The notes beneath the pieces are model-generated. The model was not told the origin of the DNA. It was given only the letters and a program-made list of their open reading frames with translations, and did not search any database. A DNA stretch of 64,000 nucleotides, from assembly GCA_021018995.1 (NCBI GenBank), contig CM037590.1:67117597-67181596 (forward strand). Reading direction: 5' to 3'. Position 1 is the stretch's first letter; every line of letters starts with the position of its first letter. Shown piece after piece: positions 2,503 through 39,171 of this stretch. The position numbers and the translations under genes were made by a program. This stretch comes from Chloranthus sessilifolius (Eukaryota > Streptophyta > Magnoliopsida > Chloranthales > Chloranthaceae).

Positions 2503-5075
2503 TGTAACGACCCCGAAAATTAGAACACGAGCCTGACTGCTTTGATCTACGTGCCCGGCATGGAAATCGAGGTTGATTCAAAAACTTTCGGGTTATATTA
2601 ATTTAAATAATGTGGCACTGTGATGAGATGAGATCACGTGTAAAATTTCGTATAGATCCTAGATGTGTAGAGGGTAGGTGGAACACGCTGCGCAGAAGCA
2701 ACTGTGTTCATGCTTCACACCGGAACAGATACCAAGGGCAAAACAGGGATTCTGAGTTGAGAGGTAGCTTATAGAGGAAGGAAAGGGAGACAAGAGAGGA
2801 GAGACTTCCACTCTTCTTCTCCTTCATCCCCTTGCCCTACGTGCTCCATAGGTTGGAGATTGTGCTAAGAAAGTGTGAAAGAGATCCCTTGTGAGAGAAG
2901 AAAAGGGTTAGCAAGAGAGAAGATGAGGGATTTCTAAGCTAGAGGAGCTAGACCTAAGTGATTGAGTTACCTGGGGTTTAAGATTGGTGTGAGAGACCTT
3001 GATCTGACGAACCAGAGCTGAAGAGCTTCTCGCCGGATCCGGATCGAGGAAGAGCTCCGAGATCTAGGTTTGAAACCCTCTTTTCGGGTCATTGCCGGAA
3101 CCCCAAGAAACCCACGAACAAGGTGAGTTGTGTGTGTTAAATAGGGTTAAATGAGTAGTTTAAAGGGTGTGTTTATGATGTATTAATGGTGATTGCACAA
3201 CCATTAATGGAGAGAGAGCAAAAATGGAAGGAAGGTGAACTCCATTAATGACAGCTTTGCTGTCATTGGTGATCGATCACCAAGGTGGTGATCGATCACT
3301 GAGGGTTGGTGATCGATCACCAAGGGCTGGTGATCGATCAATCTGTATAAACTTATGGGGAACAGAGACCCCAGAGAGTTGAGAAGTTGAGGCCCGAGGT
3401 GGAGATCGATCACCAAGGTGGTGATCGATCTACAAGGGAGTTGGTGATCGATCACCAAGGTGGTGATCGATCTACAGTGAGGTTGGTGATCGATCACCAA
3501 GGTGGTGATCGATCAATTTGTATAAAAATTAATGTGGACAGAGGGAGGAGTTTTTGAAACTTGCTGTGGTGATCGATCACCAAGGTGGTGATCGATCTAC
3601 AGAAGAGTTGGTGATTGATCACCAAGGAGGTGATCGATCAACCTTGACTGTGTTGAGGAAGAGATATGGAGGTTGGTGATCGATCTACTGTGGGTGGTGA
3701 TCGATCTACAGTGGGTGGTGATCGATCACTCACCCCTGTTTTTGTCTGTCTTGACTTCATGAAGTAGACACCCCGGATATTGTGCCGGGTAGTTCTCCGA
3801 CATTCCTAACACTTAATGTACTGTGCATATGGTATAGGATAAACCCTGACACGTCGAAAAAGCTTTGGATTTGCTTAGAAGATAAACTGATCTGAGGTAG
3901 GGGAAAATTCAACTTAAAGTGTATCTAAATTTAATTGCATGATATCTTAACATCGTATTCTATCTCTGATTTTCGAAAGCATGCCTGCATATGCATTAAA
4001 CTCTGATTCCCGTATTCTGATATCTGTTTCTGTTCTTTGCATATGCTCTGATAATCTGCTCTGATAATCTGCTCTGATAATCTGATTCATGAGGTAATAA
4101 GTATGTATTTGATTTGAGGTTTAATATTCAGACGATCCCCACCGACTCGGCGGTATATCCGTTTCTTGCACAATGTGCAGTTGCTTGAAAATCCTCGGCA
4201 AAATATGCACTCCATGTGTGGGGCATTATTGCATTCCTGAAAATTGTTCATTGAACGACGATTGGTTGGGGTTTCCTATCGGCACAAATCTGGCTACCAC
4301 GTGATATATATACACGGGAGTTACTTAAGTTAGAGATACGCATGATTTAAGTCATTTAAATATGATAAGCATAGCATTTTGCAAATTCTGAAGTTCTGTT
4401 TGCTTTTGCCAGTTATGCATTCTGATTTCCTGCATGTTGAGCATCAATTTATATTCTGTTCAGTTTTGTTCACTTATCGATCTAAGATATGTTCTGCAAT
4501 CATGTTTAATAATTTAGATGTAAATTGATTGAACTTCTTCTACTGAGCTAGGATGTAGCTCACCCCGCTTTCTGAAATCTTTTAGGTTCTGAGGTCGATG
4601 CGCCGAGCGACGGATTATCACCGGATCCCGAGGCCGAGCGGAAGGAGGAGACGGACGTCCCAAAGACGAGTTTTATCCAGTTTGGTATTGATGCCCGACA
4701 TTTTGTATTTTTGATTTTTTGGATTACTGTGTGCCTGGTGGCCACCTTTGTATAAACATATATAGTTCTGCATTTACTTATTTTATGTTAGTCCACATTC
4801 CATTTCGGAACCACTATCGGGAACCATTGTTTGGGTGATGTACGTCCATCACCGATGGTTCTTCTTGGTTCCTTTTTGGGAATGTGTGTGTTTTCTTTCC
4901 ATTTACTATTATTGATGTGTGTTTAGCATAGAAATTGTTTGACTCAGAATACCGCTGCTCGGATGTGTCCACCTAGCTTCCGCTATATGCGCGGACACGT
5001 GCGATCGATCCGGGATCATCCAGAGTATGATCCTAATGACACGGGTTTCTGGAAACGGAAATCCGGGCTGTTACA
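2503..5075 (+). repeat. 5' LTR of element A
   Basis: Runs TG...CA from TGTAACGACCCCGAAAATTAG to GCTGTTACA. A TTATAGAG promoter-like motif lies near 2769. A strong splice-donor-like AACAAG|GTGAGTT is at 3122/3123. Then come the GATCGATC array (3271-3730), the core block around 4135-4310, an acceptor-like TTTTAG ending at 4585, the acidic reading frame 4586 to about 4680 (disrupted here compared with the 3' copy) and the hairpin 4807-4872. If the TATA-like site is used, U3 is only about 0.3 kb and the rest of the LTR is transcribed. Confidence 0.93.
3271..3730. repeat. GATCGATC palindrome array in 5' LTR of A
   Basis: I count 16 exact GATCGATC and one GATTGATC. Most continue as GATCGATCACC or GATCGATCTAC, and pairs facing each other around AAGGT can form 11-bp stems (GATCGATCACC with GGTGATCGATC). 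An identical arrangement lies in the 3' LTR at about 13048-13507. The array falls between the donor-like and acceptor-like sites of the LTR. Confidence 0.93.
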
Positions 5076-5181: not shown

Positions 5182-6440
5182 ATGGGCCCTAAGTTCAGAG
5201 GAGGGCATAGTGGAGGTAGAGCAGGACAGAGAGAGATTCCCCTGAGGGATGTGCCAGAGGTCACGTCGCGGGGTTTAGAGTTTCTCTCGCAGCCAAATGT
5301 GGTTCCGGTGGGACCAAGAGGAGGAAGAAGAGGAAATGAGGAGAGGATGGAGCAGGTGTTGGAAGCATTAGCTACCAATGTCGCTCAACAAACAGCTGCG
5401 TTGGCTCAACAGGCAGCTAGACCACCCCATCAGCCTAGTGGGTTTGCGGAGTTTAGGAGAATGAGACCTCCTAACTTCTCGGGTCAAACGGATCCCATAG
5501 AGGCGGAAGGATGGATTGAAGAGATGGAAAAGCTCTTCGAGGTACTACAATGCAGTGATGAGGAGAAAGTGCGTTGGGCCACTTTCAAACTTGATGGTGA
5601 CGCCGGACCATGGTGGAAGTCGGTGTCACAAAATCGACAAAGAGAATTCCCTCACACTCCTTGGACCTGGGAGGAGTTCACGGAGGTGTTTTACCACAAA
5701 TACTTCCCGAAAATTGTGAGGCATCAGTGGGAAGTGAAGTTTATAGAATTGAGACAAGGCGCCATGTCGGTGAGAGACTATGGAGCAGAATTTGACAGGT
5801 TGGCTAGGTTTGCTCCTCAGCATGTAGCCACAGAGTTGATGAGGGCCAGAAAGTTTCAACTTGGCCTTAGACAGAATTTGCAGAAGGACGTCGCCATGTG
5901 GGAAATGGAGACGTATGAGGGAGTCATGGCCAAGGCTCTCATAGCTGAAGAGGAGAACCAAAAGCAATTTTCTTGGAGGGACAAGCAGACGAGAGAGAGA
6001 CCATTTCAAGGGCAATCTCAGGACACAGAACAAAACAAGAGGGCTAGGTTTGCTAGACCTCCGAGATACCCTACACACTCTCGACCGGCAATATCTTCGG
6101 GTCCTAGTTCCTACCAGAGGGCGGCAGCACCTACGCCCTCTAGATCATTCAGACCAGCTGGATCTTCTGGTAGCGGGGCCTCAGTGAAGGATCTCATCCT
6201 TTACTCCGGCCGTGATTTGTGCAAAGTGTGGGAAACCACACAAGACGGAGGATTGTAGGAGAGATACCGAGGCATGCTTCAGGTGTGGCAAGATGGGCCA
6301 CTTGGTTAGGAGTTGCCCTGAGGAGAGTAAGGAGCGGGCAAGATCGGTATCAACACAGAGATCATCTCGACCAATAGTCCACGGTCGAGCTTATGCCGTC
6401 ACCGCAACCGATGCTCTGACATCGAATGATGTCATCCAAG
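5182..6440 (+). pseudogene. Element A gag (one frameshift before the zinc knuckles)
   Basis: Gag forms the particle and binds RNA. The ATG at 5182 opens MGPKFRGGHSGGRAGQ, a basic Gly/Arg-rich start. The retrotransposon Gag core follows (about residues 95-240), with FAEFRRMRPPNFSGQTDPIE, then GPWWKSV, YFPKIVRHQWEVKF and MSVRDYGAEFDRLARF. The frame then ends at 6258, while the zinc knuckles are read in another frame just before it: CAKCGKPHKTEDC and the classical CX2CX4HX4C CFRCGKMGHLVRSC. So a frameshift lies near 6200. Coding runs to 6440, where an intron-like segment begins in the codon after ...VIQ. Confidence 0.9.
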
Positions 6441-6590
6441 GTATGAATTGAAATTCAATGAATGTGGTTTATTGACATAATGAATTAGGAATTTTGAAAA
6501 TACGGAAATTAATTGAGTAATTATGATGAAAATAGTATATGTATGCATGCATAGTTAAGACGTTGAGATAACATTGAAATTGGCGTATAG
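6441..6590 (+). other. Putative intron 1 of element A (Gag/protease junction)
   Basis: A 150-bp AT-rich segment with stops separates the Gag knuckle frame from the protease frame. It starts CAAG|GTATGAATTG and can end at GGCGTATAG|GT. With these ends the split codon (phase 1) and the pol frame at 6591 agree. Elements C (48596-48709) and D (42562-42698, minus) have GT-AG segments of different sequence at the same codon. The acceptor in A is the least certain; another AG lies at about 6608-6609. Confidence 0.7.
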
Positions 6591-9500
6591 GTGAACTGAA
6601 ATTGTATAGGAGTTGCGACATTTGCTTTCACAGAGCCTTGATAGATCCAGGCTCTACGCACTCTTTCATCCGACCTCAATTTACTAAGAAATTGGGTGCC
6701 ACTCCAGAACAGTTAGACTTTATTTTGACGGTGTCAGTTCCCACGGGTAATACTGTGAACGCACTCACCGTGTGCAAGTCAGTGATAGTGGCAGTGGAAG
6801 AACACGAAACACAGGCAGATTTGATTCTGTTGGATATGAAAGGATTTGACGTCATTATGGGAATGGACTGGCTATCCGCGTACCGCGCAAGTGTGGATTG
6901 CCTTCGAAAGATAGTGGTTTTTCGTCCACCTAAGCGACGATCATTTAGATTCCTTGGGGAAAAATCTAAGGTGGCTCCGTTGATATCCGCGATTCGGGCG
7001 GAAAAGATGATGAAGAATGGATGCAGCGGATATGTGGCTTTTCTACAAGAACAACGGGAAGAAACAAATGTGCTATCCGATATTCACGTCGTGTGTGAGT
7101 ATCCCGATGTATTTCCTGAGGAATTGCCTGGATTACCACCAGTTAGAGAGGTTGAGTTTGCAATCAATTTAGCTCCAGGCACAGAACCAGTATCTAAGGC
7201 TCCGTACCGGATGGCTCCAACAGAATTGCAAGAGTTGAAAGAGCAACTGCAAGAACTGCTTGACAAAGGATTTATCCGGCCAAGTGTGTCTCCTTGGGGA
7301 GCACCGGTGTTGTTTGTCAGAAAGAAAGACGGTTCAATGCGCTTATGCATTGATTATCGGCAGTTGAATAAGTTGACGATTAAGAATCGTTACCCGCTTC
7401 CTAGGATCGATGATCTATTTGATCAATTGCAAGGAGCGAGGTTCTTTACGAAGATTGACTTGAGATCAGGTTACCATCAATTACGGGTCAAGGCTGAAGA
7501 TGTGGAGAAGACGGCGTTCAGAACCAGATATGGGCACTATGAGTTCTTAGTTATGCCATTTGGATTGACGAACGCACCCGCATCATTTATGGACCTGATG
7601 AACCGTATATTTAAACCACACTTGGACAAGTCGGTGGTGGTTTTCAGTGACTACATTCTTGTCTATTCCAAGACAAAGGAGGAGCGAAGAACATCTACAT
7701 GTGGTTTTCACGGACCCTTAGAGAACACAAATTATGCATAAAGCTCGGCAAGTGTGAGTTTTGGTTGAACCAAGTGAGTTTCTTAGGCCATATAGTCTCC
7801 GCATAAAGGTATAGCAATAGATCCAACAAAGATCGAGGTTGTGAATTGGGAACGACCTAAGACGATGTGAGAGGTCCGTAGTTTCCTTGGTTTGGCAGGG
7901 TACTACAGGCGGTTTGTAGACGGATTCTCTAAACTATCGAGTCCGCTTACTCAGCTCACTAAGAAAAATGCTAAGTTTGATTGGACGGAATAATGCGAGA
8001 GGAGTTTCCAGGAATTGAAGACGCGTCTAACTACAGCACTAGTGCTAGCTATACCTTCTGGCAGAGGGGGCTTTGCTATCTACAGCGACGCATCGTATAG
8101 TGGGTTAGGTTGTGTCCTCAACCAGCATAAGAAGGTTATCGCATATGGCTCTAGACAACTGAAGGAACATGAGAAGAATTACCCGACTCATGACTTGGAG
8201 TTAGCAGCGGTGATCTTTGCTCTGAAAATTTGGAGGCACTACTTATACGGTGAGACATTTGACATCTACACCGACCACAAAAGCCTAAAGTACTTGTTTA
8301 CACAAAAGGACTTGAACATGCGACGGTAGCAGTGGATGGAGTTCTTAAAAGATTACGATTGTTCCATCCAGTATCACCCTGGAAAAGCCAATGTGGTTGG
8401 GGATGCTTTGAGCAGGAAGTCTTCAGCTCAGTTGGCACATTTGATCACCAGAGTGCAAAGGTGGCATTTACTGGAAGACCTGGCCTTATGTGATACGTTG
8501 ATTGATGTCAAGGGTTCAGGTTCTTTGATGGCCACCATTGTGATACGGCCCACATTGTTTGATAATATACGTAAGCTCCAAATGGTCGATGACGAGCTCA
8601 TGACGATTAGAAGAGATGTGATCAATGGAATAAGGCCTGATTTTTCTATTAAGGATGATGGCACCTTGCTATTTCGAGATCGGATGTGCATACCGGATAC
8701 CAAGGATCTAAAAGACACAATTTTGGAAGAAGCGCATAAATCTACGTATGCTATACATCCGGGTAGCACCAAGATGTACCAAGATCTCAAACGAAGTTTT
8801 TGGTGGAGAGGATTAAAGAAGGATGTGGCGGAGTATGTTTCTCGGTGTTTGTGCCAAACGGTGAAAGTAGATCATCGGAATCCGGCGGGTTTGTTACAAC
8901 CTTGCCGATGCAGTGGAAATGGGAAGCCATCTCTATGGACTTTATTTTAGGATTACCGAGTACACTGAGAAAGAACAATGCAATATGGGTTATTGTTGAT
9001 CGTTTGACGAAATCCGCACACTTTCTACCGTATCGGACTACAATCACAGCCAATAAACTAGCCGAGTTATATTTGAAAGAAATAGTTCGATTACATTGAA
9101 TACCTGTCAGTATTGTGTGTGATAGAGATCCTCTGTATACGTCGCAGTTTTGGCGACGGTTCCAAGAAGGCATGGGTACAAAATTGGAGTTCATTTCTTT
9201 CACCCTCGCATGATGGGCGCCGAGAGAGTGAACCGGATAATAGAGGATATGTTGCATGCATGTTAGACTTTCATGGCTCATGGGATCAACACTTACCTCT
9301 AATCGAGTTTTATATAATAACACTATCGATCGAGCATTGGGATGGCACCTTATGAAGCCTTATATGGACGTCGATGCAAATCTCCATTGAACTGGGAAGA
9401 AATCGGCGAGAAGCTTGTCTTAGGACCAGAAATGGTAGATAGTACCACTGAAACAGTAAGAGTAATACGTGAAAGGTTGAAGATGGCCCAAAGTCGCCAA

Positions 9501-9964
9501 AAGAGCTATGCCGATCTTCACCGAACACAAGTGGAATTTCAGGTATAATCAATTACATTAATGATATGACCATGGTTAAAATTAAACTACAAAGGAATTG
9601 ACCCTTGTTTTCGTGTTGGAGACAAGGTGTTTGTGAAAATTTCGCCAATCATAGGCGTCATGCGTTTTGGGAAGCGAACGCGAAGCTAAGTCCTCGGTAC
9701 ATTGGACCATTTGAAGTACTTGGACGGGTTGGCGAGGTAGCATATCGGATCGCCTTACCACCGCAGTTAGCAAGCATGCATAACGTATTCCACGTATCCA
9801 TGCTGCGCCATTACGTACGCGATCCGACTCACATCTTGGATTTCCAACCGATAGAGCTTCAGGAGGATATGACGACGATTGAGGAACCGATTGCTATTTT
9901 AGATCGTCGACATCAAGTCCTGCGGACTAAATTAATCCTACCGGTACTAGTTAGGTGGAGAAAT
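6591..9964 (+). pseudogene. Element A pol: protease, RT, RNase H, integrase, chromodomain-like tail (broken)
   Basis: Protease has [10 protein letters not shown] at about 6640. RT follows from about 7260 ([16 protein letters not shown], then [14 protein letters not shown], then [13 protein letters not shown]). Its catalytic site, expected as a [YF]xDD motif, reads [10 protein letters not shown] near 7645, so the second Asp is lost. After a frameshift, RNase H runs 8040-8420 ([37 protein letters not shown], ending in a stop after NMRR). Integrase begins near 8740 (HPGSTKMYQDLKRSF); its Glu region (about 9190-9240) is scrambled. The GPY/F module ([20 protein letters not shown]) and tail (IEEPIAILDRR) end near 9964. 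GAGAAG|GTAAGT at about 10042 follows as a possible donor. Confidence 0.92.
9543..9614 (+). other. Putative intron 2 of element A (integrase C-terminal part), acceptor damaged
   Basis: The frame reads ...VEFQ then CAG|GTATAATC, 72 bp of stop-containing AT-rich sequence, then resumes at GTTGGAGACAAGG (VGDKVF). The homologous segment in B (15180-15264) ends in TTTTCAG; here the end is TTTTCGT, so the AG is missing. Elements C and D run through this position without a break. Confidence 0.65.
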
Positions 9965-10637
9965 CATTAACGCCGAAGCTTACTTGGGAGAGAGCAAATT
10001 AAATTGAACAATGATCGCGATCTGTTCACCTGATGAGAAGGTAAGTCTCAGTACTTCATCTAGGAATTCGTTGCCATGATTATAAATTGGTGTGTGAGCA
10101 TATACTTGATGAATTTCTCTTTTTGGAACACTTTATATGGCGTGTATGAATCAGTAGTCTCAAAATCCAGACCGTCAATATTAGGGAGATTGAACAGATG
10201 AAATGTGGTGTTTCACGGGTGATCGATCTACACCAAGCTGGTGATCGATCACCAATAGGCAGTGATCGATCTACACCCAGTGGTGATCGATCTACAAGAG
10301 ACCCCGTGATCGATCTACACACTTGGTGATCGATCAATGAAGCGGGTTTGGAACTTAAAGATTCCTTGGTGATCGATCACCAAGAGGCCGTGATCGATCA
10401 CCAATGGGCGTTAAGTTATAAGAGAGGGGGAGTCCGAAGGGTCATTGCAACATCACAACTGCAAGAGACCAAAGGGGTTTTCGACTTCCGACCTTCCCCA
10501 ACCATTTTCCGACTATTCTCCGGCTATTTCGTTCGTTCTCCGGCTCGATTTGAGTGTGCGTCGCCTCATTCACCGGTAAATCCTCCATTTCCTTGATCTT
10601 TGATTCCTTTCTTCGCATTTTAACCCGAATCTATACC
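9965..10637 (+). other. Element A spacer between pol and the third gene, with palindrome array
   Basis: Non-coding. It holds a strong donor-like GAGAAG|GTAAGT right after the pol end, a GATCGATC array (10221-10400), then a C/T-rich stretch (about 10470-10637) reading like a 5' UTR, with CACCG|GTAAATCC near 10576 as a possible 5' UTR intron donor. The next ATG is the start of the third gene at 10638. The same order is found in B. Confidence 0.7.
10221..10400. repeat. GATCGATC palindrome array upstream of the third gene of A
   Basis: Eight exact GATCGATC in about 180 bp, mostly followed by ACC or TAC as in A's own LTR array. They lie about 240 bp before the third-gene ATG. Confidence 0.92.
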
Positions 10638-12043
10638 ATGGGACCACGCACGAAGAATCCTTCGCGTAAGGTACCCACGTCTCGGGCTCGTACCCCGGTA
10701 CCGCCCACCGTTTCCGTTCCCCCGCCGTCCGTGCCACCCATGGCACCGGCTTCGACCTCTACCCCGCCCGTTCCCGCATCCGCACCGCTCACTATTGAGC
10801 GTGAAGTCCCCAACGCCTGGTGGGCTTCCAAAACCTTCCTACCGGAATACGTTTTTGTGTCCTCACTATATGAGGACCGACCCGAAATAAATGGCCAAGG
10901 GTTACATACAAAAGCTAGGGCTTAAACCTTACTTCGCGCCCTTCCATGACCATTACTGCCCACGTATTGTGCGGCTTTTCTTTCAAAACCTCAAATGGGG
11001 TGATAGTCGCCATCGACTCGTCACAACCATCGATGGCCTTGAATATAAATTCAACCATTTCCATGTCGCGGCGGCACTTCAATGCCCGTCCGCGTACATT
11101 GAGACCAGTGGCCTCGAGCCTCCGTACGTCAAGGAGGTACCCTATGCCGATGTGGTCACCAAGATGACCCAAGGCCAACACTTAGAGGGCTAAGCCATTT
11201 CTAGGGCCCAACTACGACCGGTTGTGGATGCTTGATACCTACATCAAGTGTGCCTCAACCCTTTCTCGCAAGTCCTCACGGACCGGAGTAGTGCAAGGCA
11301 CTATTCTCCGCCTATGAGAACCACGGTTCTCTATGGCGAATCATTGATGGCATCATAAATGCCAATGACCGATGTCCGAGAAGGCGATCTGGAGCGAAGA
11401 ACAGATCCCCTATGCACGCCTGTCACCAAGCTCGTAGAGCGATATCGCCCTACGCGAGGCCTACGTCTTGGCTCCTCACGAGCCTCGTTTGGAAAACAAC
11501 ACTAGGGTCTTTCACCTGAAAGACTGGACAAAGAGCTACAACTTGTTGGTTAAGCGTCTTCCTGAGGAGGAAGAGGGCGCGGCTGAGCCCGTTCTCCCTG
11601 ATGTAGCAGAGGGTTCAGTCCCTGCTGTAGCAGACGGTTCAGTCCCTGATGTGCCCGCGACCACAGAGGGCGAGACACCACAGGACCTACCACCCCAGCC
11701 AGAGCCATCTGTCCAGCCTGTTCCACACCTCGTCGATCATCACACGCATCAGCCTCCCCACCGTCTTCCTCCGACGACGTCACTGCGATGCTTCGCGAGT
11801 TGGTGGAGAGCAATCGCCGCATCCACGTGAGACTGGATGGCGTTGAGGCGTTCCAGATGCATCGTCTGGACTATCACGCGGGTATGCATGAGCTAGTCAT
11901 GCAGCACCTCTATGCCACGACGTCCACGCCGATGATCGCGCACGCCCGCCTGCACAGGGTGGATCCACGCGACTATCATTCACCGCCGGCGCGTCCCAGC
12001 AGACAGACGCCTGATCACGCCGGCCCATCCGATGTCCCCGCAG
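10638..12043 (+). pseudogene. Element A third gene (unknown retroelement accessory protein), broken
   Basis: I do not recognise an established function. The start MGPRTKNPSRKVPTSRARTP is basic and leads into a Pro-rich stretch. A conserved globular part follows: NAWWASKTFLPEYVF, LYEDRPE, then after a frameshift near 10888 LGLKPYFAPFHDHYCPRIVR and IDGLEYKFNHFHVAAALQCP. After a stop at 11191, LWMLDTYIKCA is readable in another frame. Later come KDWTKSYNLLVKRLPEEEEG (about 11520), a Pro-rich acidic linker, and a helical C-terminal part (RLDYHAGMHELVMQHLYATT, then HARLHRVDPRDY). No signal peptide or membrane helix is visible, so it is not a typical envelope. It loosely resembles plant retroelement 'putative transposon protein' (Transposase_32-like) domains. 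A donor-like CCCCGCAG|GTATTACC closes it in phase 1. Confidence 0.75.
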
Positions 12044-12300
12044 GTATTACCATGCTATCATACCTAGTAGTTAATTGTATGTGTACATTCTATTTATATT
12101 CATTGCATGCCTCATAAATTCTGTTAAGACTTTCATTTTCATGCCTGATATATGTATAAATTCCGTAAGTGTTTTAATTACCCTGCATGACACGTAGACC
12201 AAATTTCTGTATTAGTTTAGCATGTGAGTTTTAGAACTACAAAGCCCTGAATGCGCCTCTTAGACATTTTCGAGGACGAAAATTCCTAAGGGGGGGATAA
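12044..12300 (+). other. Element A 3' region with polypurine tract
   Basis: Non-coding after the third gene. It ends in the block CATTTTCGAGGACGAAAATT and the polypurine tract AAGGGGGGGATAA (12288-12300), the plus-strand primer directly before the 3' LTR. Tekay/Del-type plant elements usually have a very similar block. Confidence 0.88.
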
Positions 12301-14875
12301 TGTAACGACCCCGAAAATTAGAACACGAGCCTGACTGCTTTGATGTGATGTCGTGCCCGGTCACGAAATCGAGGTTGATTCAAAACTTTGGTTATATTAA
12401 TTTAAATAATGTAGCCGTGATGAGATGAGATCACGTAAAATTTCGATAGATCCTAGATGTGTAGAGAGGTAGGTGGAACACGCTGAAGCAACGTGTTCAT
12501 GCTTCACACCTAAGCAGATACCAAGGGCAAAACAGGATTACGAGTTGAGAGGTAGCTTATAGAGGAAGGAAAGGGAGACAAGAGAGGAGACTTCCACTCT
12601 TCTTCTCCTTCATCCCCTTGCCCTACGTGCTCCATAGGTTGGAGATTGTGCTAAGAAAGTGTGAAAGAGATCCCTTGTGAGAGAAGAAAAGGGTTAGCAA
12701 GAGAGAAGATGAGGGATTTCTAAGCTAGAGGAGCTAGACCTAAGTGATTGAGTTACCTGGGGTTTAAGATTGGTGTGAGAGACCTTGATCTGACGAACCA
12801 GAGCTGAAGAGCTTCTCGCCGGATCTGGATCGAGGAAGAGCTCAAGATCTAGGTTTGAAACCCTCTTTTGTCATTCTTTGGAACCCCAAGAAACCCACGA
12901 ACAAGGTGAGTTGTTTGTTAAATAGGGTTAAATGAGTAGTTTAAAGGGTGTGTTTATGATGTATTAATGGTGATTGCACAACCATTAATGGAGAGAGAGC
13001 AAAAATGGAAGGAAGGTGAACTCCATTAATGACAGCTTTGCTGTCATTGGTGATCGATCACCAAGGTGGTGATCGATCACTGAGGGTTGGTGATCGATCA
13101 CCAAGGGCTGGTGATCGATCAATCTGTATAAACTTATGGGGAACAGAGACCCGGAGAGTTGAGAAGTTGAGGCCCGAGGTGGAGATCGATCACCAAGGTG
13201 GTGATCGATCTACAAGGGAGTTGGTGATCGATCACCAAGGTGGTGATCGATCTACAGTGAGGTTGGTGATCGATCACCAAGGTGGTGATCGATCAATTTG
13301 TATAAAAATTAATGTGGACAGAGGGAGGAGTTTTTGAAACTTGCTGTGGTGATCGATCACCAAGGTGGTGATCGATCTACAGAAGAGTTGGTGATTGATC
13401 ACCAAGGAGGTGATCGATCAACCTTGACTGTGTTGAGGAAGAGATATGGAGGTTGGTGATCGATCTACTGTGGGTGGTGATCGATCTACAGTGGGTGGTG
13501 ATCGATCACTCACCCCTGTTTTTGTCTGTCTTGACTTCATGAAGTAGACACCCCGGATATTGTGCCGGGTAGTTCTCCGACATTCCTAACACTTAATGTA
13601 CTGTGCATATGGTATAGGATAAACCCTGACACGTCGAAAAAGCTTTAGATTTGCTTAGAAGATAAACTGATCTGAGGTAGGGGAAAATTCAACTTAAAGT
13701 GTATCTAAATTTAATTGCATGATATCTTAACATCGTATTCTATCTCTGATTTTCGAAAGCATGCCTGCATATGCATTAAACTCTGATTCCCGTATTCTGA
13801 TATCTGTTTCTGTTCTTTGCATATGCTCTGATAATCTGCTCTGATAATCTGCTCTGATAATCTGATTCATGAGGTAATAAGTATGTATTTGATTTGAGGT
13901 TTAATATTCAGACGATCCCCACCGACTCGGCGGTATATCCGTTTCTTGCACAATGTGCAGTTGCTTGAAAATCCTCAAATAAAATATGCACTCCATGTGT
14001 GGGGCATTATTGCATTCCTGAAAATTGTTCATTGAACGACGATTGGTTGGGGTTTCCTATCGGCACAAATCTGGCTACCACGTGATATATATACACGGGA
14101 GTTACTTAAGTTAGAGATACGCATGATTTAAGTCATTTAAATATGATGAGCATAGCATTTTGCAAATTCTGAAGTTCTGTTTGCTTTTGCCAGTTATGCA
14201 TTCTGATTTCCTGCATGTTGAGCATCAGTTTATATTCTGTCCAGTTTTGTTCACTTATCGATCTAAGATATGTTCTGCAATCATGTTTAATAATTTAGAT
14301 GTAAATTGATTGAATTTCTTCTACTGAGCTAGGATGTAGCTCACCCCGCTTTCTGAAATCTTTTAGGTTCTGAGGCTGCAGTGCCCGGCACCGAGAGCGA
14401 CCCGGATTATCAGCCGGATCCCGAGGCCGAGGCAGAGGACGAGGAGACGGACGTCCAGGCGGACGAGTTTTATCCGTAGCCTGGGTATTGATGCCCGACA
14501 TTTTGTATTTTTGATCTTTTGGATTACTGTGTGCCTGGTGGCCACCTTTGTATAAACATATATAGTTCTGCATTTACTTATTTTATGTTAGTCCACATTC
14601 CATTTCGGAACCACTATCGGGAACCATTGTTTGGGTGATGTACGTCCATCACCGATGGTTCTTCTTGGTTCCTTTTTGGGAATGTGTGTGTTTTCTTTCC
14701 ATTTACTATTATTGATGTGTGTTTAGCATAGAAATTGTTTGACTCAGAATACCGCTGCTCGGATGTGTCCACCTAGCTTCCGCTATATGCGCGGACACAT
14801 GCGATCGATCCGGGATCATCCAGAGTATGATCCTAACGACACGGGTTTCAGGAAACGGAAATTCGGGCTGTTACA
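12301..14875 (+). repeat. 3' LTR of element A
   Basis: About 2575 bp, TG...CA, nearly the same as 2503-5075, with array 13048-13507, core block near 14027, hairpin 14607-14672 and the intact form of the acidic reading frame (14367-14479). Differences from the 5' LTR are mostly small indels, clustered in the first 250 bp and in the acidic frame. Confidence 0.94.
14367..14479 (+). other. Acidic reading frame in the 3' LTR of A, candidate last exon of the third gene
   Basis: After the acceptor-like AATCTTTTAG the sequence opens without an ATG for 37 codons rich in Glu and Asp (contains ESDPDYQPDPEAEAEDEETD and ends DEFYP, TAG at 14477-14479). Entered in phase 1 it is open throughout, and the donor-like site at the end of the third gene (12043/12044) is also phase 1. 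Related frames ending in EF[FY]P occur at the same place in most LTRs of the window. Splicing is inferred, not observed. Confidence 0.6.
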
Positions 14876-14880
14876 GGATA

Positions 14881-15684
14881 TGTTGCGTGCATGCACGTTA
14901 GACTTTCATAGGTCATGGGATCAACATTTACCTCTGATTGAATTCGCGTATAATAATAGTTATCAGTCCAGTATTGGCATGGCTCGCTACGAAGATTTAT
15001 ACGGACGACGATGCAGATCTCCATTTAATTAGGAGGAAGTCGGCGAGAAACTTATTTTAGGACCTGATATCATGGACAGCACAACCGAGACCGTTTGGTT
15101 AATCCGCGAGAGATTAAGAGTTGCTCAAAGTCGCCAGAAAAGTTATGCCGATCTTCATCGAACGCAAGTCGAGTTTCAGGTATACTTGAATGTGTTCAAT
15201 ACTTGTTCAATCCCTTAAGTTTCCTTATCTGCTCAATTAGTAGAGAGTTAACACCTATTTTCAGGTAAGAGATAAGGTTTTTGTCAAGATCTCACCAACC
15301 AAAGGCGTGATGTGTTTTGGAAAACGTGGGAAGCTAAGTCCACGATACATTAGAACTTTTGAAGTACTGGGTCGGGTTAGAGAAGTCGCGTATAGGATTG
15401 CTCTGCCACCACAGTTGGCAAGCATGCATAATGTATTCCATATTTCAATGTTGAAGAAATACGTGAAGGACCCAACCCAAGTCTCGGATTTTCAACCGAT
15501 TGAACTTCAAGAGTGTCTGACTCTGATAGAGGAACCTATGCAGATTCTAGACCGTAAGGAGCAGGTGTTATGAACTAAGATGATTCCACTTATTCTAGTA
15601 AAGTGGCAGGATCATTCCTCTGCAGAGGTTACCTGAGAACGCGAAGCAGAAATTCGTGAGCAATACCCGCAACCGTTTCATTGA
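14881..15684 (+). pseudogene. Element B pol, part 2: integrase C-terminal domain and chromodomain-like tail
   Basis: Continues integrase directly after the insertion point: MLRACTLDFHRSWDQHLPLI, EFAYNNSYQSSIGMARYEDL and GRRCRSPFN (then a stop). After intron 15180-15264 come [11 protein letters not shown] and the GPY/F-like module ([20 protein letters not shown]), with the Gly-Pro replaced by Arg-Thr. The tail is [12 protein letters not shown], a stop, IPLILVKWQDHSS and EIREQYPQPFH with TGA at 15682-15684. In chromoviruses this tail guides integration by reading chromatin. GCGAG|GTAACAG directly follows as a possible donor. Confidence 0.9.
15180..15264 (+). other. Putative intron 2 of element B (integrase), intact GT-AG
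   Basis: GAGTTTCAG|GTATACTTG ... CACCTATTTTCAG|GTAAGAG. It is 85 bp, AT-rich, contains stops and sits between codons (phase 0), with clean homology to uninterrupted integrase on both sides. A pyrimidine-rich acceptor is present. It matches the position in A (9543-9614) and is absent from C and D. Confidence 0.82.
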
Positions 15685-15884
15685 TATGCGAGGTAACAGT
15701 TAATTTTAAATTACCTCATTCTGTTACGTATTATGCATTGATAAAATACAATTACATAAATATTAAATGGTGTTTGTTACTTGGAATGCTAGTGTATCAA
15801 TAGGAGATAACACATGGTTCCCAAAATTAGACCCACAGGTCTTTTAAACCTGTATTTATGGAAAACAACTTTGCTATCAAATTC

Positions 15885-16225
15885 GATCGATCAAATTGTG
15901 ATTTGATCGATCAAATGCAAATCCGATCGATCAAAGTGAGGATTTGATCGATCAAGTACTAATCCGATCGATCAAATGGAAATATTCATCGATCAAATAG
16001 TTTAAGCTTTATACTATTATTTAAACCTGTCTGATCGATCAAATAGATGAATTGATCGATCAACCTTGAAATTCGATCGATCAAATTTAAGGATTGATCA
16101 ATCAAACCTGTCGGGCTAGGTTTTTCATTTTTTGAAATTCAATCGACCAATTTGAGCATTGATCGATCAACTTTTTTTATTTAAGTTACGTTGGGTTTTA
16201 TTTTTGCCCATTTGATCGATTAAGA
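15885..16225. repeat. GATCGATCAAA palindrome array upstream of the third gene of B
   Basis: Nine exact GATCGATC plus several one-base variants (for example ATTGATCAATC), mostly in the context GATCGATCAAA as in the B LTR and unlike the ACC/TAC context of A. The spacer from 15685 to the array and from 16226 to 16394 holds no gene; the latter is a C/T-rich leader with CTCACG|GTAAACCC near 16333. Confidence 0.9.
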
Positions 16226-18246: not shown

Positions 18247-19016
18247 TGTAACGACCTAAAATTTTGAAACATTCTGACTACTTTGGTATACATGCTTAGC
18301 ACGAAAATCGAGATAAACTTAAAATTTTCTAATAAGAATATTAATATCAAGATTTTTAATCTATATGCGTGTAAAGTTATAGGTCACGTGTAACGCGAGT
18401 TTGAGATCTGATGAGATACTTGGTAGAATACTATGCACTGAGTGGGGTGTATGTAATTAACACCGGAATTTAAATTTGAGAGATAAAAATATCAAAGATA
18501 TTTCTCTGTAATAGCTTATAAGGGAAGGAAGAGAGTTAGGATTCTTTTCTCTACTCCTTTTTCCTTCTTTTCTGGGTGATTTGGTGCTAAGAGATTGGGT
18601 TTAGGTATTACGTCATCTCATGTTGGTCAGCTTGGTTCCAGAAGAACTCCGTTGTGAAAACAAAGCTCAAAGAATCTATAGACTCTAGACCCAGGTGTGT
18701 GCAGGAGAGTGTATATACGTAGTGTCTGATCTAGAGGTGTGTGTGCCTCTGTGGGTTAGCGTGAAGTCCCACTCCGAGGATTGTCAACAACGACCTAATC
18801 TCCAATTTCGAGTCCAAAGAATCGTCCTGAGTCGAAGGTTGCCTTGGATTAAGGAATCAACATAAAAGAGGTGAGTTACTATATATTTGTAGGGTCTTTG
18901 ATGTCATAAATACATGGGTATGTGTGCTTGAATGATTCGTGGAGAATCATAATGATGTATGGTTGAAATAGGTTAAAAATCAACAAATTGTACTAATGAC
19001 AAAAACTGTCATTTCT

Positions 19017-19697
19017 GATCGATCAAATTGAGTATTTGATTGATCAAATTGTAATTACCTATAAAACAGGAGGGTTGTTTTATGAAAGTTCATGCCCAAT
19101 CAATCCGATCGATCAAATCTAGGATTTGATCAATCAAATTTGAGACTGATCGATCACACTATACGTGATCGATCAAGTGCTAACTGATCGATCAATTTCC
19201 TAATTGATTGATCGAAATGAAAGATTGATCGATCAAAATAGGGATTTGATTGATCGAATCTTATATATGCCTTATAGAATAGGAGGTCTATTTTTCTAAA
19301 ATATGTGACTTTGAAATCCGATCGATCAATTATGAGAATTGATCGATCAAATTAAGAATTCGATCGATCAAACAAGCAAGTTGATCGATCAAGAATCCTT
19401 TGTTCTGTATATATAAATTTTAGGTTCTGATCGATCAAATATGAGAATTGATCGATCAAATGTGAATCCGATCAATCAAATGGGAAGTTGATCGATCAGA
19501 TTTCCTCTACTCTATAAATGTAAAATTTTGGGTCTTGATCGATTAAACACTAGAATTGATCGATCAAACCATGAATCCGATTGATCAAATAGGGAGTTGA
19601 TCGATCAGATTTCCCAACTCTATCTTTAAAGGATTAAGGTATCTGATCGATCAAATAGGAAATCCGATCAATCAAATAGGGAGATTGATCGATTGAA
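19017..19697. repeat. GATCGATCAAA palindrome array in the LTR of B
   Basis: About 16 exact GATCGATC and around nine near copies (GATTGATC, GATCAATC, GATCGATT), mostly followed by AAA and preceded by AT or CC. A longer periodicity is visible: blocks of three or four palindromes alternate with a TATATAAATTTTAGG-like spacer. Confidence 0.92.
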
Positions 19698-20462
19698 TTC
19701 TCTTGTTTTGCCTGTATTAGTTTTATGAGAAAAACACTTTTGGGCAGTGAACCAATTACTATTCTGACTCTTCTGATACTTAGTACACTATATGTATGGT
19801 CTAGGTAAAGACCAAGACACTTTAAAAAGCTTTAGATTTACTTAGAAAGACCTGATCTGATGTAGGGGGAATTCAACTTAACTTGTATCCAATTTGACTG
19901 CATGGTTTCTTAGCATCTGTATTTGACTTCTGTTGTTTCAAAAGCATGCCTTGCATATGATAAAGCTCTGTCAACTCTGATTTATGTATCTCTGCTCTGC
20001 TCTGATTCCTGATATCCTGATATATACTCTGATTTAAAGTTCATGTGACGAATCCCTCTGACGTGGCGGGATATCTGTGTATCTGATTTGTAAATCCTCT
20101 GGCACAAGTTGCTCTCCTTTGAAGAGGCTTGATGTAAATTATCTAAAATTATTCATTGAACGATGATGGTTGGGGTTACCCATCGGCAAATAATCTGGCT
20201 ACCACGTGCTATATTCATTGGAGTTACTTAAGTATAAAATTTAAGTCACTAAATATTGTATGTGTGCATCTGAAAAACTCTGAGAATAAAGTCTATTTCT
20301 AATATTCAGCATCTGCTATCTGATCATTTCTGTCTGCATTCTCTGATTTGACATCTGTTTCGAGTTATGTTCTACAAGCCATGTTTTATATATTAGATGC
20401 AATTTAATTGAGTTTCTTCTATTGAGCTTAGATGGTTAGCTCACCTTGATTTTATATCATAG

Positions 20463-20572
20463 GTTCTGAGGCTAGGACACCTGGTGCTGAGAGCGATCCC
20501 GATTATCAGCCTGAGGCCGAGGATGAGGCTAAGGAGGACACTGACACCCCTGCTGACGAGTTTTATCAATAG
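20463..20572 (+). other. Acidic reading frame in the LTR of B
   Basis: Open in phase 1 after ATCATAG, 36 codons to a TAG. It contains ESDPDYQPEAEDEAKEDTDT and ends DEFYQ. No ATG lies in frame at the start, so if translated it must be an exon joined to upstream coding sequence. Confidence 0.6.
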
Positions 20573-20972
20573 TTTTGGTACTCGTCTGGTGTTATTTTTA
20601 GGATATGTCCATATATTTTGGATTATCTGTGTGCCTAATGGCCACTTTTCTTTATTTATTTACTGTAGATGTTTACTTATAATCTTATATATTATATAGG
20701 AACCATTGTTTTGGGTGATGAATGTCCATCACCAGTAGTTCTTCTTGCTTCCTTTTTGAGGATGCATATTCTTTTGATTATACTTATATATATAGTGTTG
20801 TTTCTTTTCTTTCTTTTAGAGCCTTATATGATGACTCGATCTACCACTTTAGATAGTATCTGCTCTGATTTCTACTAGACAAGCAGACACTCTTTGGTTT
20901 TGTTCTGGGGATCAGTAAGAGTTATGATCCTCATGGCACGAGTTTTCGAGTGCGGAAATTTGGGCTGTCACA

Positions 20973-25682: not shown

Positions 25683-27353
25683 TGCGAATGAGTTTTTTCT
25701 TGGTGTCATTGATCCTAAACAAGTTGGTTTTTCATAAGAAACAAATGTTTATAGCAAACCTGTTTTATTCCATGGTAAGAATTAGTAAGAGCTGAGCATT
25801 TATTTATGACATATTTTGATTAACCTAAATAGGTAAATAGCCAAAAACATTATAAATAAGTAATTAATCTCTTGGTCTTCTTGTTCAGTGAGATTGTATA
25901 TTTGTTATAAGTTCCTTTGATTGTGGCACATTTTTAACGTTTAATTTTAGGAAAAACATTAAGAAATTGAAACTATAATCTGGTTGCAGATACTGGTGTG
26001 ATGAGCGGAGCCATGATATTTATCAAAGAAGAATTAAAAATCAGCGAAATCCAAGTTGAAGTCCTTGCCGGAATTCTTAACGTATGCGCATTGGTCGGAT
26101 CGACAGCAGCAGGTCGAACGTCGGATTGGATAGGCCGGCGTTACACGATCGCCCTCGCTTCTATCATATTCTTCATCGGTGCAATTCTAATGGGATTGGC
26201 TCCTACATATGCCATTTTACTGGCCGGACGGTGCGTAGCAGGTGTTGGAGTAGGCTATGCGCTCATGATCGCGCCAGTATACTCTGTCGAGATCTCTTCA
26301 ACATCATCTCGAGGGTTTCTAACTTCCCTACCAGAAGTTTGTATTAGCCTCGGCATCTTATCTGGCTATGTATCAAATTATTTCATAGGGAAGTTGCCAC
26401 TAAAATTAGGGTGGCGAATAATGCTCGGTCTCGGTGCAATCCCTTCAATTCTCTTATTATTCAGCATTATCATGATGCCCGAATCGCCGAGATGGTTGGT
26501 AATGCAAGGTCAGCTTGGAAGTGCCAAGAAAGTGCTACTGAAAGTGTCAAACTCAAAGGAAGAAGCCGATCTTCGGCTTGGTGAGATTAAGGTTGCGGCA
26601 GGTATTGATGAGCATTGCAACGATGATATCGTCAAAATGCCAACAAAGAATCGAGGAAACGGCGTGTGGAAGGAGCTCTTATGGAAGCCATCGCCATCGG
26701 TCCGACGGATTTTGGTTGCGAGCATTGGAATCCATTTCTTCGAACATGCCACCGGGATCGAAGCTGTGGTCCTATACAGCCCTAGAATTTTCAAGAAAGC
26801 TGGGATTGAGACTAGGGACATGCTCTTACTTGCAACAATTGGTGTGGGGGTCACTAAGACTCTTTTCATCTTGGTGGCTACCAATTTATTGGATAAGGTT
26901 GGAAGGAGACCCCTTTTGCTAACAAGCTTAGGGGGTATGATTGTCTCTTTGACTGGAATAGGGATTGGTTTGACCATCATTGACCACTCTCAAGAGAAGC
27001 TCATATGGGCTATTGCTCTATGTATTTGCACTATCTTGTCCTTTGTGGCCTTCTTTTCTATTGGGCTTGCGCCTGTTACATGGGTCTATAGTTCAGAGAT
27101 ATTCCCCTTAAGATTAAGGGCACAAGGGTTCAGCATAGGGGTGGCAGTCAACAGAATCATGAATGGGACCGTTTCTATGACTTTTATATCACTCTATGAA
27201 GCCATTACTATAGGAGGCGCCTTCTTTCTGTTTGCTGGTATGGCAGTAGTGGGCTGGTTGTTTTTCTACTTCTTTTTGCCTGAAACGAAAGGGAGATCAT
27301 TGGAGGAGATGGAAGAGGTATTCAGTAAGGAAGGTGACATTGTAAGAAGATGA
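25268..27353 (+). CDS. PLT: Polyol/monosaccharide transporter, MFS sugar porter family (two exons)
   Basis: Exons 25268-25415 and 25990-27353 encode 503 residues, normal for plant plasma-membrane polyol/H+ symporters (PLT/PMT, MFS sugar porters, about 12 membrane helices). Exon 1 gives the N-terminus (KYAFACSIIASMISIILGY). The split codon restores the conserved Asp before TGVMSGA, so the first ATG at 25268 fits. Family motifs, protein numbering: GRTSDWIGRR at 91-100 (loop 2-3), PESPRW at 213-218 (after helix 6), VGRRP at 353-357 (loop 8-9), PVTWVYSSEIFP at 411-422 (after helix 10) and LPETKGRSLEEME at 479-491. Helix 7 has FFEHATGIEAV (299-309), where many sugar porters have a Gln-Gln motif. 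No stop or frameshift was seen; it is the only apparently functional gene here. Substrate not determined. Confidence 0.93.
25416..25989 (+). other. Single intron of the transporter gene, with two TC microsatellites
   Basis: TTATG|GTATGTTC ... GGTTGCAG|ATACTGG, phase 1, 574 bp. Pure TC tracts lie at 25425-25471 and 25637-25680; the first starts nine bases after the donor. Such tracts are length-variable. Confidence 0.9.
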
Positions 27354-29564: not shown

Positions 29565-32500
29565 TGTCATATCCTGACTTTCCCGCACCCAGAATCTCGG
29601 GAAGGCCGGGTCGCCATTGGCTTGGTACATTCACACAAATGGAGAAATCAGAGCAGTTATCAAACATCAATGAATATCTTATATGGCAAAAGAAATTCTA
29701 TTTCTAAGCAAGATATATCAACAAAAGAACCTAATGAACCACCAGTGATGGCCGACCATCACTTAAACAATGGTTCATCATAGTTCTCAAAATGAATATA
29801 CAAACGCATTGATCATATCATCTTACAAAATTTACTGGACTTACCAAGCCCAAAATTTTCAAAATCCAAAACTACTCCAAAACAGAGTCCCAATCTAGGG
29901 GTAAAACTCGTCGAGCGGAAGATCCTCTTCCTCCGGTTCGTAATCAGGGTCGTTCTCAAGCACCTGTTGTAATATCCCTGATATTTTTTTCCTATTTTTC
30001 ATTTACCTCGGTAAGCGTGTCCAGAAAATATTGTGGAATGTTTTATTTTTGGTAAGCTAAGGCTATGATGAGACTTGTGGAAAAAGGAATTGGTCAGAAG
30101 ATGTGTGTAAGTCATGTAATCGATGACTTACACAATAGCATTGGTGTTTGTGTTTAACACCGAATATTCTTTTAACTTAAATGGATAAGTTATAAAATAA
30201 TAAAATCTAGATATTTTATTATTAGCTTTTGGTTATAAGAGAGAGTGCAAGAGAAGTTTCACTTCTCTCTCTCGTTGGAATTAAGCCTCTAAGGACTTGC
30301 CTCATTTGATCCTAGATCTTGGAAGCTTGAGAGCTCCTCTTTCCATCTCAACCATTACTTTGTCTTATGCTTGTAATTGGATCTGTTTGAACTATTGAAA
30401 GAGAAAAGAGATGTGGAAAAGGAGAAGTTCTCTGTGAATTTGTTGTGGCTGAGACAGTGTCCACCTCCTTGAATGAGGACTGATTCGAAGTTTTTAAACC
30501 TTTGAGCTTGGAAATTGTTCCGATGCGTGAATCGGTGCAACGAAATCAACGAATTAAGCTACAAGAGGTAGGCTGTTAAAACCTTCTTGTGTCCTTTAAA
30601 ATTTTGTTTTGCTTAAAATAGTATGTAGTATGTTTAAAGGAGATCTGAGGACTGTGTTTGGAAATGAAGAAAAGAATCCGGACATGAAAGGATAACAGCC
30701 ACAGAACCTGAGGAATTCGATTGTTGATTTGAAAATCGACTGTCGAATTTGGAAATTGACAGTCGAAATGTGTTTTTTTGGCCTGAGACAGATTTTTGAA
30801 AATCAAAGGTCGATTAATTCGACCATCGAATTGAAATTCAAGTGTCGAATTTCAGGGTTTTATCACTGATGTGCTGTTTTGAAATTCGAAGGTCGAAATT
30901 GAATTCGACCATCGAATTCTGTCCTGTATTTGGCTTTCGAAATTTTTTCGGATTATTTTCTCAGCAAGCTTTTGGGTTGAAATTTTTGTTCTATATTAAC
31001 ACTGAGAGTGTTAATATATGTAGGTTTTGACTGTTGGGAGTCCTTGGTGAGGACTGCTAGTGCATGGTTTTCAATATTCCTTGTTGAGGTAGGGGAACCT
31101 TATTTGTTATTTGCATCAATTTATAAGCATAAACTGTTTCGGCTATTTCTTTTAAGAAGCATTAGTTTTGGAATTCTGTTATACACAGCATAAATAAAAC
31201 TCAAAAGATATGACACAGATATGAAAATTTGGAACTTTGTTATGACTAAAGAACTTCAAAATTTGAACCTCAGAATCTCAGTTAATTTTTGAATCAGAAC
31301 TTCGAATCGGAACTTTGAAAAATCAGTATATGATATGAATAATAAGCCTTGATATGTGTTAGCATTTGCATTTGATTTAGGGTTCATAAGTACGATGCCC
31401 TAGATTCTACCAACCGTGTTGACGGTATTACTTTGGCGCAAGTTTCCCTCATAGCGTAGGGGCTTGTTGCACTTTCGAAATGGGTTCATGAACGATGATG
31501 GTCAGTAGGGTTTTCCCATCGGTCACGTAGTCCACTCTCATGCTATAGGAAATTTGGGAGATAAAATTAAGTTATAAATTTAAGACAAGAAGCATGCTAA
31601 ATTAGAACATTTTTGAACACTTTAGATTAAATTATCAGTTTTGACTCAGGATTAGAACTGGAGATTTACCTTGAAAAGCATCATTGAAAAACCATATTTG
31701 ATCCGATTTCGTCTTTTGAAAACCTTTACTTATAAAGAAATGCACATAGATTTGTTTCCTCTAATGAGCTTGGTTGTTAGCTCACCCTCGACTATACGTC
31801 ACAGGTGCTGAGACTAACCTTGGGTCAGAGGATCTAGAGGACTCCGATTATATTCCCGAGGAGGAATCGGACTTACCAGCTGAGAAGTTCTTTCCGTGAT
31901 TTTAGATCCTGTATTTTTTTGGTATTTTTGTCTGGATATTATTTTGGAATATTGAACCCTAGGCTATTATTTTGGTTCTTTTGATATCACTCGAGGAACC
32001 ATTATTGTGAACCTCTATTTTAGGTGATCGGATTGGCCATCACCGGTGGCTCTTTTTGGTTCCTCACAGTGATATATTTAATTTTGTTATATGAAGCTTT
32101 TGTTTTTGGATTACTATATGTTGCCTCTGTCTTTAGATCTTTGATATATTACTGGCTTCTGTTTGTTACGGCTTATTGAGAAATCAATAAGTTTATGAAC
32201 CGGCCTTTCGTATACCCTAGGGATTGGAAAAGTCGGGTCGTCACACCTGTTCCTGATTAGTATCTACACCTGTGACGTATAGTTGGGGTGAGCTAATAGT
32301 CTAAGCTCAACAGAGGAATAATCAACATCAATTGCATTTATCATATCATTACATAGATCAAATGACATAATCAAAAGCATTATCAAACAGTGATTCAGTG
32401 ACAGCGTTCCAAGCTGAATTTGATTAACAATTTCTTATTCATTTTTTTTGTCAAACAGGATTGTAAGGGCCATATTCAATTTGAAATCAACATGAAGTGT

Positions 32501-35844: not shown

Positions 35845-36035
35845 TCGAACGATCGATTTTGGCTCTGTTTGACAGGTTCAATTTATGAAGGAATTGAACG
35901 TTCGAATCCAAATTCGAACATTCGAATTCAAAATTGAACGTTCGAAAATGGAATCGAACGATTGATTTTGGTCCTGACTAACAAGTTCGATTTCTGAAGA
36001 AATCGAACGCTTGAAAATAAATTTGAACGTTCGAA
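35845..36035. repeat. GAACGTTCGAA palindrome array in the LTR of C
   Basis: Copies of TTGAACGTTCGAA, TCGAACATTCGAATT, ATCGAACGATCGATTTT and similar. The same palindrome recurs inside C before its third gene. Confidence 0.88.

Positions 36036-39135: not shown

Positions 39136-39171
<36 letters not shown>

Follow-up and report, generated by a model that had tools for sequence, protein, structure and literature searches.

Why should a retrotransposon carry the same short palindrome in two places, once in its long terminal repeat (LTR) and again just upstream of its third gene? The question is raised by a 64,000-nucleotide stretch of the Chloranthus sessilifolius genome (assembly GCA_021018995.1, contig CM037590.1, positions 67,117,597 to 67,181,596; hereafter the window), which contains nested Ty3/gypsy elements. 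In elements A, B and C a third gene, in sense orientation, follows pol and precedes the 3' LTR, and an earlier reading of the window had proposed that each element carries a palindrome of its own at both sites. This is confirmed here, and the coordinates hold. At least four related families (A with a sub-family A2, B, C and D) each carry one family-specific palindrome both as an array of boxes in the LTR and as a second array before the third gene, and the claim that the two sites match within an element holds in A, A2, B, C and D. The pre-third arrays sit roughly 170-650 bp before the third-gene ATG, with boxes about 20 bp, or two DNA turns, apart.

Palindrome arrays in the window

The palindrome GATCGATC occurs 70 times in the window, far above the mean of 1.30 (maximum 4) in 100 dinucleotide shuffles, none of which reached 70. 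Exact cores are present in the two A LTRs (16 + 16), the A pre-third array (8), the B pre-third array (9) and the B LTR (16). Family C has five exact copies of GAACGTTC (shuffles: mean 0.78, maximum 4), three in the LTR at 35896-36032 and two at 52472-52517. The C arrays in the window are mostly decayed, and at 54849-54908 there are only near-matches with one or two mismatches, scored by eye, so that the case for C is weaker than originally stated. The family D word, TCGAnnnTCGA, is found 25 times against 1.04 expected, with 22 of these inside D LTRs, and GCTCGAGC, from the LTRs of a further element, E, five times against 0.28 expected. Genome-wide searches of the 2.17-Gb assembly (32 contigs) gave 3936 sites for GGTGATCGATCACC and 2 for the reversed control, and 165+180 sites for a C 14-mer against 7+10 for its control. 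The features of A, B and C in the window are:

2503-5075, + strand: element A 5' LTR, palindrome array 3265-3735 (originally placed at 3271-3730)
5182-9970, + strand: element A gag, protease, reverse transcriptase and integrase pieces (Pfam, three pieces; the integrase C-terminal piece 9602-9970 was used for BLAST comparison only)
10221-10401, + strand: A pre-third array, 8 GATCGATC boxes 20-23 bp apart with one gap of 43; flanks mostly ACC/TAC
10638-12048, + strand: A third gene, frame-broken in the window, start MGPRTKN
12301-14875, + strand: element A 3' LTR, array 13045-13515 with 16 exact boxes; TATA inside at 13127 and 13301
15244-15570, + strand: element B integrase C-terminal part, SH3_Tf2-1
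15883-16220, + strand: B pre-third array, 9 exact GATCGATC plus near-matches; commonest flank AAA
16395-17714, + strand: B third gene, with an early in-frame stop and frame changes
18247-20972, + strand: element B 3' LTR, array 19016-19697; four-box modules in the second half
35042-36147, + strand: part of the element C 5' LTR, followed by element E; array 35840-36040 of GAACGTTC type, 109-bp module
48904-52072, + strand: element C, a protease piece and an integrase whose chromodomain exceeds the Pfam cut-off
52443-52520, + strand: C pre-third array, first part, 2 exact boxes
54849-54908, + strand: C pre-third array, second part, with 3 near-match boxes at 20-bp intervals
55077-56365, + strand: C third gene, interrupted by three in-frame stops and, after them, a frame change
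57327-57836, + strand: partial element C 3' LTR (by eye)

The third genes of A, B and C are thus all broken in the window. The motif had been said to differ between families; this is true of C, but A and B have the core GATCGATC in common and differ in their flanks (mostly ACC/TAC in A, most often AAA in B). Every family word contains TCGA, that of C only when extended to TCGAACGTTCGA, and spacing and flanks vary from word to word; this sharing was noticed post hoc, and TCGA occurs in about 8% of random 14-bp palindromes. When 11 pre-third arrays were compared with 14 LTR arrays by counting matching sequence windows (40 shuffles each), family blocks stood out, though not perfectly cleanly. The A pre-third array gave 101 matches with the A LTR (3.8 shuffled) and 0 with the C LTR (2.1), and the C pre-third array 73 with the C LTR (14.4) and 10 with the B LTR (13). 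Cross matches between A and B are high (A pre-third to B LTR 48 versus 8.4 shuffled; B pre-third to A LTR 84 versus 10.7) because their core is common.

The sub-family A2

Three A2 copies have a third gene 86-87% identical to that of A over a 100-amino-acid piece. Their box flanks are mainly AAT/AAC, those of A (A1) ACC/TAC, and the difference is present in both arrays. Before the third gene, half-sites of the two classes (ACC/TAC:AAT/AAC) number 20:2 in two A1 elements and 11:45 in three A2 elements (p=6.6e-9), and in the LTR 26:3 in A1 (the window's 3' LTR) and 9:58 in A2 (two LTRs; p=8.4e-13), p-values that overstate the evidence because boxes in one array are not independent. The majority flank class is identical across all arrays of each sub-family.

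Copies elsewhere in the genome

Three genome-wide third-gene searches yielded 32382, 35179 and 26707 loose candidates, of which the best 150 were scored in each case; with so many candidates per search, the third-gene family is probably very large. No stop was found in 145 of the 150 best-scoring A-type matches, which suggests that the A-type family has been recently active.

Twenty B-type elements were each fetched with 8 kb. A GATCGATC pre-third array is present in 18 of them (L036 and L048 lack it), and in those 18 the last exact box lies 200-305 bp upstream of the third-gene ATG. An LTR-zone array is present in 15 and was not found in L040, L046, L048 and L050; that of a sixteenth copy, L053, is further off, and this copy was excluded from the own-pair copying test and from the LTR part of the box and spacer comparison described below. 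L036 contains an open frame (oriented 553-1960) running from reverse-transcriptase-like sequence into the third-gene start region, and is apparently a deletion derivative without a pre-third array. Separately, arrays of another family word, ATCGATTAATCGAT, lie downstream of two B elements (L041 6697-7035, L048 5318-5714, oriented).

A second C element, with a third gene 78% identical to the C piece, has C boxes at both sites (L055, L056). The part of the genome spanned by the first 100 of the 345 C 14-mer sites contains 45 third-gene matches to the C query and 53 to the B query. Four of the former (identities 63-76%) are preceded on their own strand by an exact C 14-mer, at a distance of 542-730 bp, and none of the latter has one within the 2 kb upstream. 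Seven further family D elements show D-type boxes before the third gene, the decayed L057 without an exact box. Four D LTR windows were fetched blind; L060 and L067 held other sequence and were excluded from the LTR comparison, and the two that hit an array both carry D boxes, such that the pairs L057/L058 and L066/L068 match. For A, an LTR - internal - LTR pattern of sites is seen at three loci of contig C1, at about 62.62, 64.63 and 66.93 Mb (by eye, among the first 50 sites listed). The remaining listed sites are a single site, a single cluster, a non-fitting pair of clusters 8.3 kb apart and one incomplete group. An A-type third gene at C1:67040503 lies 7.6 kb from the site at 67032912, similar to the distance between the third gene and the 5' LTR array in A.

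Array layout and conservation

When the arrays of all 20 B copies are pooled with those of A and B in the window, the commonest centre-to-centre box spacing is 21 bp (96 of 225 pre-third and 106 of 323 LTR distances between neighbouring boxes). Over much of their LTR arrays B, C and D show four-box modules, with boxes 19-21 bp apart and a gap of 46-50 bp (21, 21, 21 and 46 in B; 20, 20, 20 and 49 in C; 19, 20, 19 and 48 in D). These modules recur about every 106-109 bp, and their layout is alike while their words differ. There are exceptions to this module: box numbers differ in the C2 LTR and in the first half of the B LTR array, the A array has a period of 167 bp, and the E boxes are pairs 22 bp apart. 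In A, B, C and D1 about 740-800 bp of LTR precede the array.

When the box positions of one B element are applied to the others, box bases outside the central CG are 96.4% identical before the third gene and 97.1% in the LTR, versus 71.5% and 73.7% for the spacers; the central CG itself is 87.3% and 84.8% identical. Box identity exceeds spacer identity with every reference B element (18 of 18 before the third gene, 14 of 14 in the LTR). Among one-mismatch boxes of the 20 B copies, central-CpG transitions account for 53 of 99 before the third gene and 93 of 131 in the LTR, which would fit methylation of the sites once the elements had been silenced. TATAWA occurs 47 times in 7821 bp inside the B LTR arrays of 14 elements (6.0 per kb) and 31 times in 19569 bp within 700 bp either side of them (1.6 per kb).

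Reading or copying of the palindromes

A match between two sites is expected if something reads the motif, or if the sites are copied from each other, and both had been suggested. Copying within single elements is not supported. In 15 B elements, own arrays share 40.3, 25.0 and 9.9 12-, 14- and 16-mers, and arrays of different elements 38.7, 24.1 and 9.8 (p=0.16, 0.28 and 0.46), so that sharing within own pairs is not above that with other elements. Copying may have taken place in the founder of a family: in the D element L066/L068 the order of centre triplets is similar in both arrays (GGG ... CCA ... GGG, partly by eye), a hint at founder copying followed by shared constraint. The suggestion that something reads the motif gains support from the A/A2 difference in both arrays, the better preservation of box columns than of spacers between elements, the common layout with different words, and the near-fixed distance to the third-gene ATG (200-305 bp in 18 of 20 B copies). 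Overall, the interpretation offered in the original prediction is partly supported. The third-gene protein is the candidate reader.

The third gene and its protein

The third protein appears to be under purifying selection. Across 35 of the 36 pairs of nine open B pieces (one pair was saturated), the median ratio of non-synonymous to synonymous substitution rates (dN/dS) is 0.14, a rough figure because many dS values exceed 1. These long open pieces were chosen by hand at 9 of the 20 loci; open pieces of L037, L040, L049, L051 and L054 were not used. Between A and C the third gene is 42% identical over 50 amino acids and the integrase end 70.5% over 95, and between A and B the values are 66% over 59 and 79% over 80; by these identities the third gene is the faster-diverging of the two.

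Judged by profile matches, the third protein appears to be a distant relative of Transposase_32 (PF20167), not a formal member. The piece from L038 scores 33.6 bits against a gathering cut-off of 45 (E=4.7e-8, profile positions 8-173 of 177), and pieces from L044 (27.1 bits) and family D (20.9 bits) likewise match nearly the whole profile length below the cut-off; L046, L047 and L050 went unmatched at E up to 1. A heptad pattern is present at the C-terminus (p=0.019 in B and 0.0015 in D, in segments chosen by eye), so dimerisation would fit. No membrane-like stretch was found in five pieces of the protein (highest 19-residue mean hydropathy 1.16).

A proposed regulator and its alternatives

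We propose, with moderate confidence, that the third protein acts as a dimeric regulator of its own LTR and its own gene by binding its own family's palindrome. It would form a homodimer that, at the LTR, switches on the genomic transcript or keeps it free of silencing and, at the internal array, drives expression of the third gene itself, creating a positive loop. The evidence does not separate an activator from an anti-silencer role. Protein and word would diversify together, and therefore each family would serve only itself; the family-specific words point, short of proof, to a protein in each family that would recognise that family's copies alone. If so, A and A2 are a natural pair for locating the protein residues that set specificity.

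Several observations weigh against this proposal. The Transposase_32 matches, in the D piece and in two of the five long B pieces, all fall short of the cut-off, and Pfam found no DNA-binding domain in the third-gene pieces, other matches being weak. A protein database search with alignment A1 gave no relative (0 of 4226 candidates at E<=0.001), and a search by sequence for relatives of solved structure gave one match at E=0.41, which was disregarded, leaving none credible. A single-sequence structural model of the C piece was all helical with a mean pLDDT of 50, and no fold search was based on it. No consistent TATA box was found between the internal array and the ATG in eight B copies. The comparison of boxes with spacers may owe something to an alignment anchored on the boxes. 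In the A2 arrays, 13-42% of half-sites are still of A1 type. Cross matches between C and D are raised (C pre-third to D2 LTR 36 versus 8.9 shuffled; C2 pre-third to D4 LTR 41 versus 14.8), weaker than those between A and B yet above shuffles. Of the 45 C-query matches, 41 have no exact C 14-mer upstream, although they speak clearly neither way because an exact 14-mer is strict for decayed copies. Finally, element E and four Sireviruses described in PMC2829016 have palindromes in the LTR but no third gene, so a host factor could read them.

Host transcription factors would then act on LTR and internal promoters that are tuned, family by family, to separate dimeric factors, with the third protein doing something else. 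The TATA-rich LTR arrays are consistent with this, as are the LTR boxes that E keeps without a third gene, and the Sirevirus authors discuss binding by different nuclear factors (PMC2829016). We nevertheless regard it as unlikely: separate factors would be needed for the near-alike words of A, A2 and B, which have one core and different flanks, and the near-fixed distance of the internal array before the third gene would be left unexplained. It is improbable that there is no reader at all, the internal array being a copy of the LTR array homogenised by template switching during reverse transcription or by gene conversion, and grown by slippage. Tandem repeats such as these, and the similar triplet order in L066/L068, are what such copying could produce, but own-pair sharing in the 15 B elements is no higher than sharing with other elements, boxes are kept better than spacers between elements, and different words stand under a common layout.

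That the arrays act as RNA, either as dimerisation or packaging signals or as double-stranded RNA feeding or decoying small-RNA silencing with its 21-nt period, seems to us very improbable. Self-complementary units do recur about 21 nt apart; the spacing is, however, 19-20 in D, 20 in C and 22 in E, which suits two helical turns better than a single small-RNA size, and a promoter region is suggested by the TATA boxes within the LTR arrays of B. An RNA structure, one of the readers originally suggested, is also less likely because zero-spacer even palindromes such as GATCGATC should be unable to close a hairpin on their own. Chance or microsatellite-like slippage, which has the tandem arrangement in its favour, is refuted by the 70 copies against 1.3 expected, reached by no shuffle, and by the 3936 sites against 2 for the reversed pattern.

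Elements and other features of the window

Family D and element E are represented in the window by the following features:

29968-32246, + strand: family D solo LTR, TCGAnnnTCGA array about 30705-30930
36148-45960, - strand: element E, LTR arrays of GCTCGAGC at 37560-37860 and 45060-45360
52544-54842, - strand: family D solo LTR nested in the C pre-third array, own array 53895-54090
62225-62525, - strand: family D LTR array, three four-box modules

Element A is flanked by the target-site duplication GGATA, its LTRs are 96.6% alike with 36 gap openings, and it appears to have inserted in pol of element B. It has a Ty3-type capsid (Pfam), and its integrase C-terminus is 78.8% identical to that of B over 80 amino acids. 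The integrase pieces match SH3_Tf2-1 in B, and SH3_Tf2-1 and Integrase_p58_C in E; in C, SH3_Tf2-1 is joined by a chromodomain (Chromo, PF00385, 27.7 bits against a cut-off of 25.1). No chromodomain was matched in the B and E integrase pieces at E up to 0.001. The gag and reverse transcriptase pieces of A, the integrase pieces of B, C and E and the C chromodomain point to chromoviruses, presumably resembling the Tekay lineage.

Element E has LTR palindromes, and neither an internal array nor a third-gene match was found in it (when four third-gene pieces were searched by tblastn at E up to 0.01, the matches were confined to the genes of A, B and C). Both its LTRs contain a 215-bp tandem duplication (37422-37852 and 44918-45348), and every unit contains a pair of GCTCGAGC-type boxes spaced by 22 bp.

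Further palindrome-rich arrays, of ATCGATCGATT and AATCGATT types, lie at about 1038-1190 (element G) and 34779-34930, and are perhaps minus-strand LTR parts of other families. An element F has the word TCGATTAATCG. Boxes of TCAATCGATTGA at 58480-58590 and 60500-60760, outside the assigned elements, resemble the Sirevirus Tnd-1 motif ACAATCGATTGT (PMC2829016). A 460-codon open frame at 25971-27353 resembles, by eye, a sugar/polyol transporter exon, and is apparently a host gene between elements.

Comparison with known systems

The nearest precedent is provided by the RM boxes of Sireviruses, palindromes that lie in the LTR upstream of the TATA box with more just upstream of an env-like gene (PMC2829016). 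Sireviruses without the env-like gene have no internal boxes and keep those of the LTR, and the same division is seen here, A, B, C and D having both arrays and E, which is gene-less, LTR boxes only. Element-specific box variants are also described in Sireviruses. The two groups differ in that Sireviruses are Ty1/copia elements and those described here Ty3/gypsy (from the capsid of A, SH3_Tf2-1 in B, C and E, and the chromodomain of C). A CGG-CCG core is present in 12 of 13 Sirevirus motifs and absent from GATCGATC, GAACGTTC, TCGAnnnTCGA and GCTCGAGC, and close sub-families differ here in both arrays.

We note parallels to the VANDAL transposons and their VANC proteins (PMC5735166, PMC10398659), in which family-specific short tandem motifs in non-coding parts accompany an extra element protein and related families have different motifs; the elements here likewise have family-specific tandem motif arrays in non-coding regions. 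VANDALs, however, are DNA transposons, and VANC has DUF1985 and DUF287, neither of which matched the third-gene pieces scanned at E up to 1. Motif binding and demethylation by VANC were shown experimentally, whereas the arrays here are known from sequence; the word palindrome does not occur in PMC5735166. The dual arrangement proposed here would resemble that of foamy-virus Bel1/Tas, a single protein of an animal retrovirus that binds response elements at the LTR promoter as well as at an internal promoter (PMC517496).

Other plant elements have extra genes of comparable kinds (see also PMC12844716). The 3' aORF of sunflower Athila has a Transposase_32 match and a predicted nuclear location, whereas the extra ORF of sunflower Tekay is on the 5' side and without a known domain; palindromes are not mentioned in the main text (PMC11728184). 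The Retand TRP28 ORFs lie between pol and the 3' LTR, with predicted DNA binding and family-specific tandem repeats nearby, but are antisense, have PF04195 rather than PF20167 and belong to a non-chromovirus (PMC11963269). No paired palindrome arrays in Ty3/gypsy elements were found in titles and abstract openings among the matches listed, where subscription literature is thinly covered.

What third genes do in plant LTR retrotransposons is a matter of debate (PMC7264820), and paired family-private arrays open the question to direct test, because each family predicts its own binding site. It is possible, although we put this forward tentatively and with some doubt, that such 'env-like' or accessory genes generally encode element-private dimeric DNA-binding regulators and not envelopes, diversifying fast and co-evolving with their own palindrome words. 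These words would stand in a common box layout at the element's own LTR and own promoter, as a retrotransposon counterpart of VANC and Tas. Like VANDAL DNA transposons, LTR retrotransposons would then possess a means of anti-silencing or self-activation whose specificity can evolve. The observation itself is confirmed and extended: the principle of paired arrays is known from Sireviruses, and the Ty3/gypsy version, with its change of word between sub-families, differs from it.

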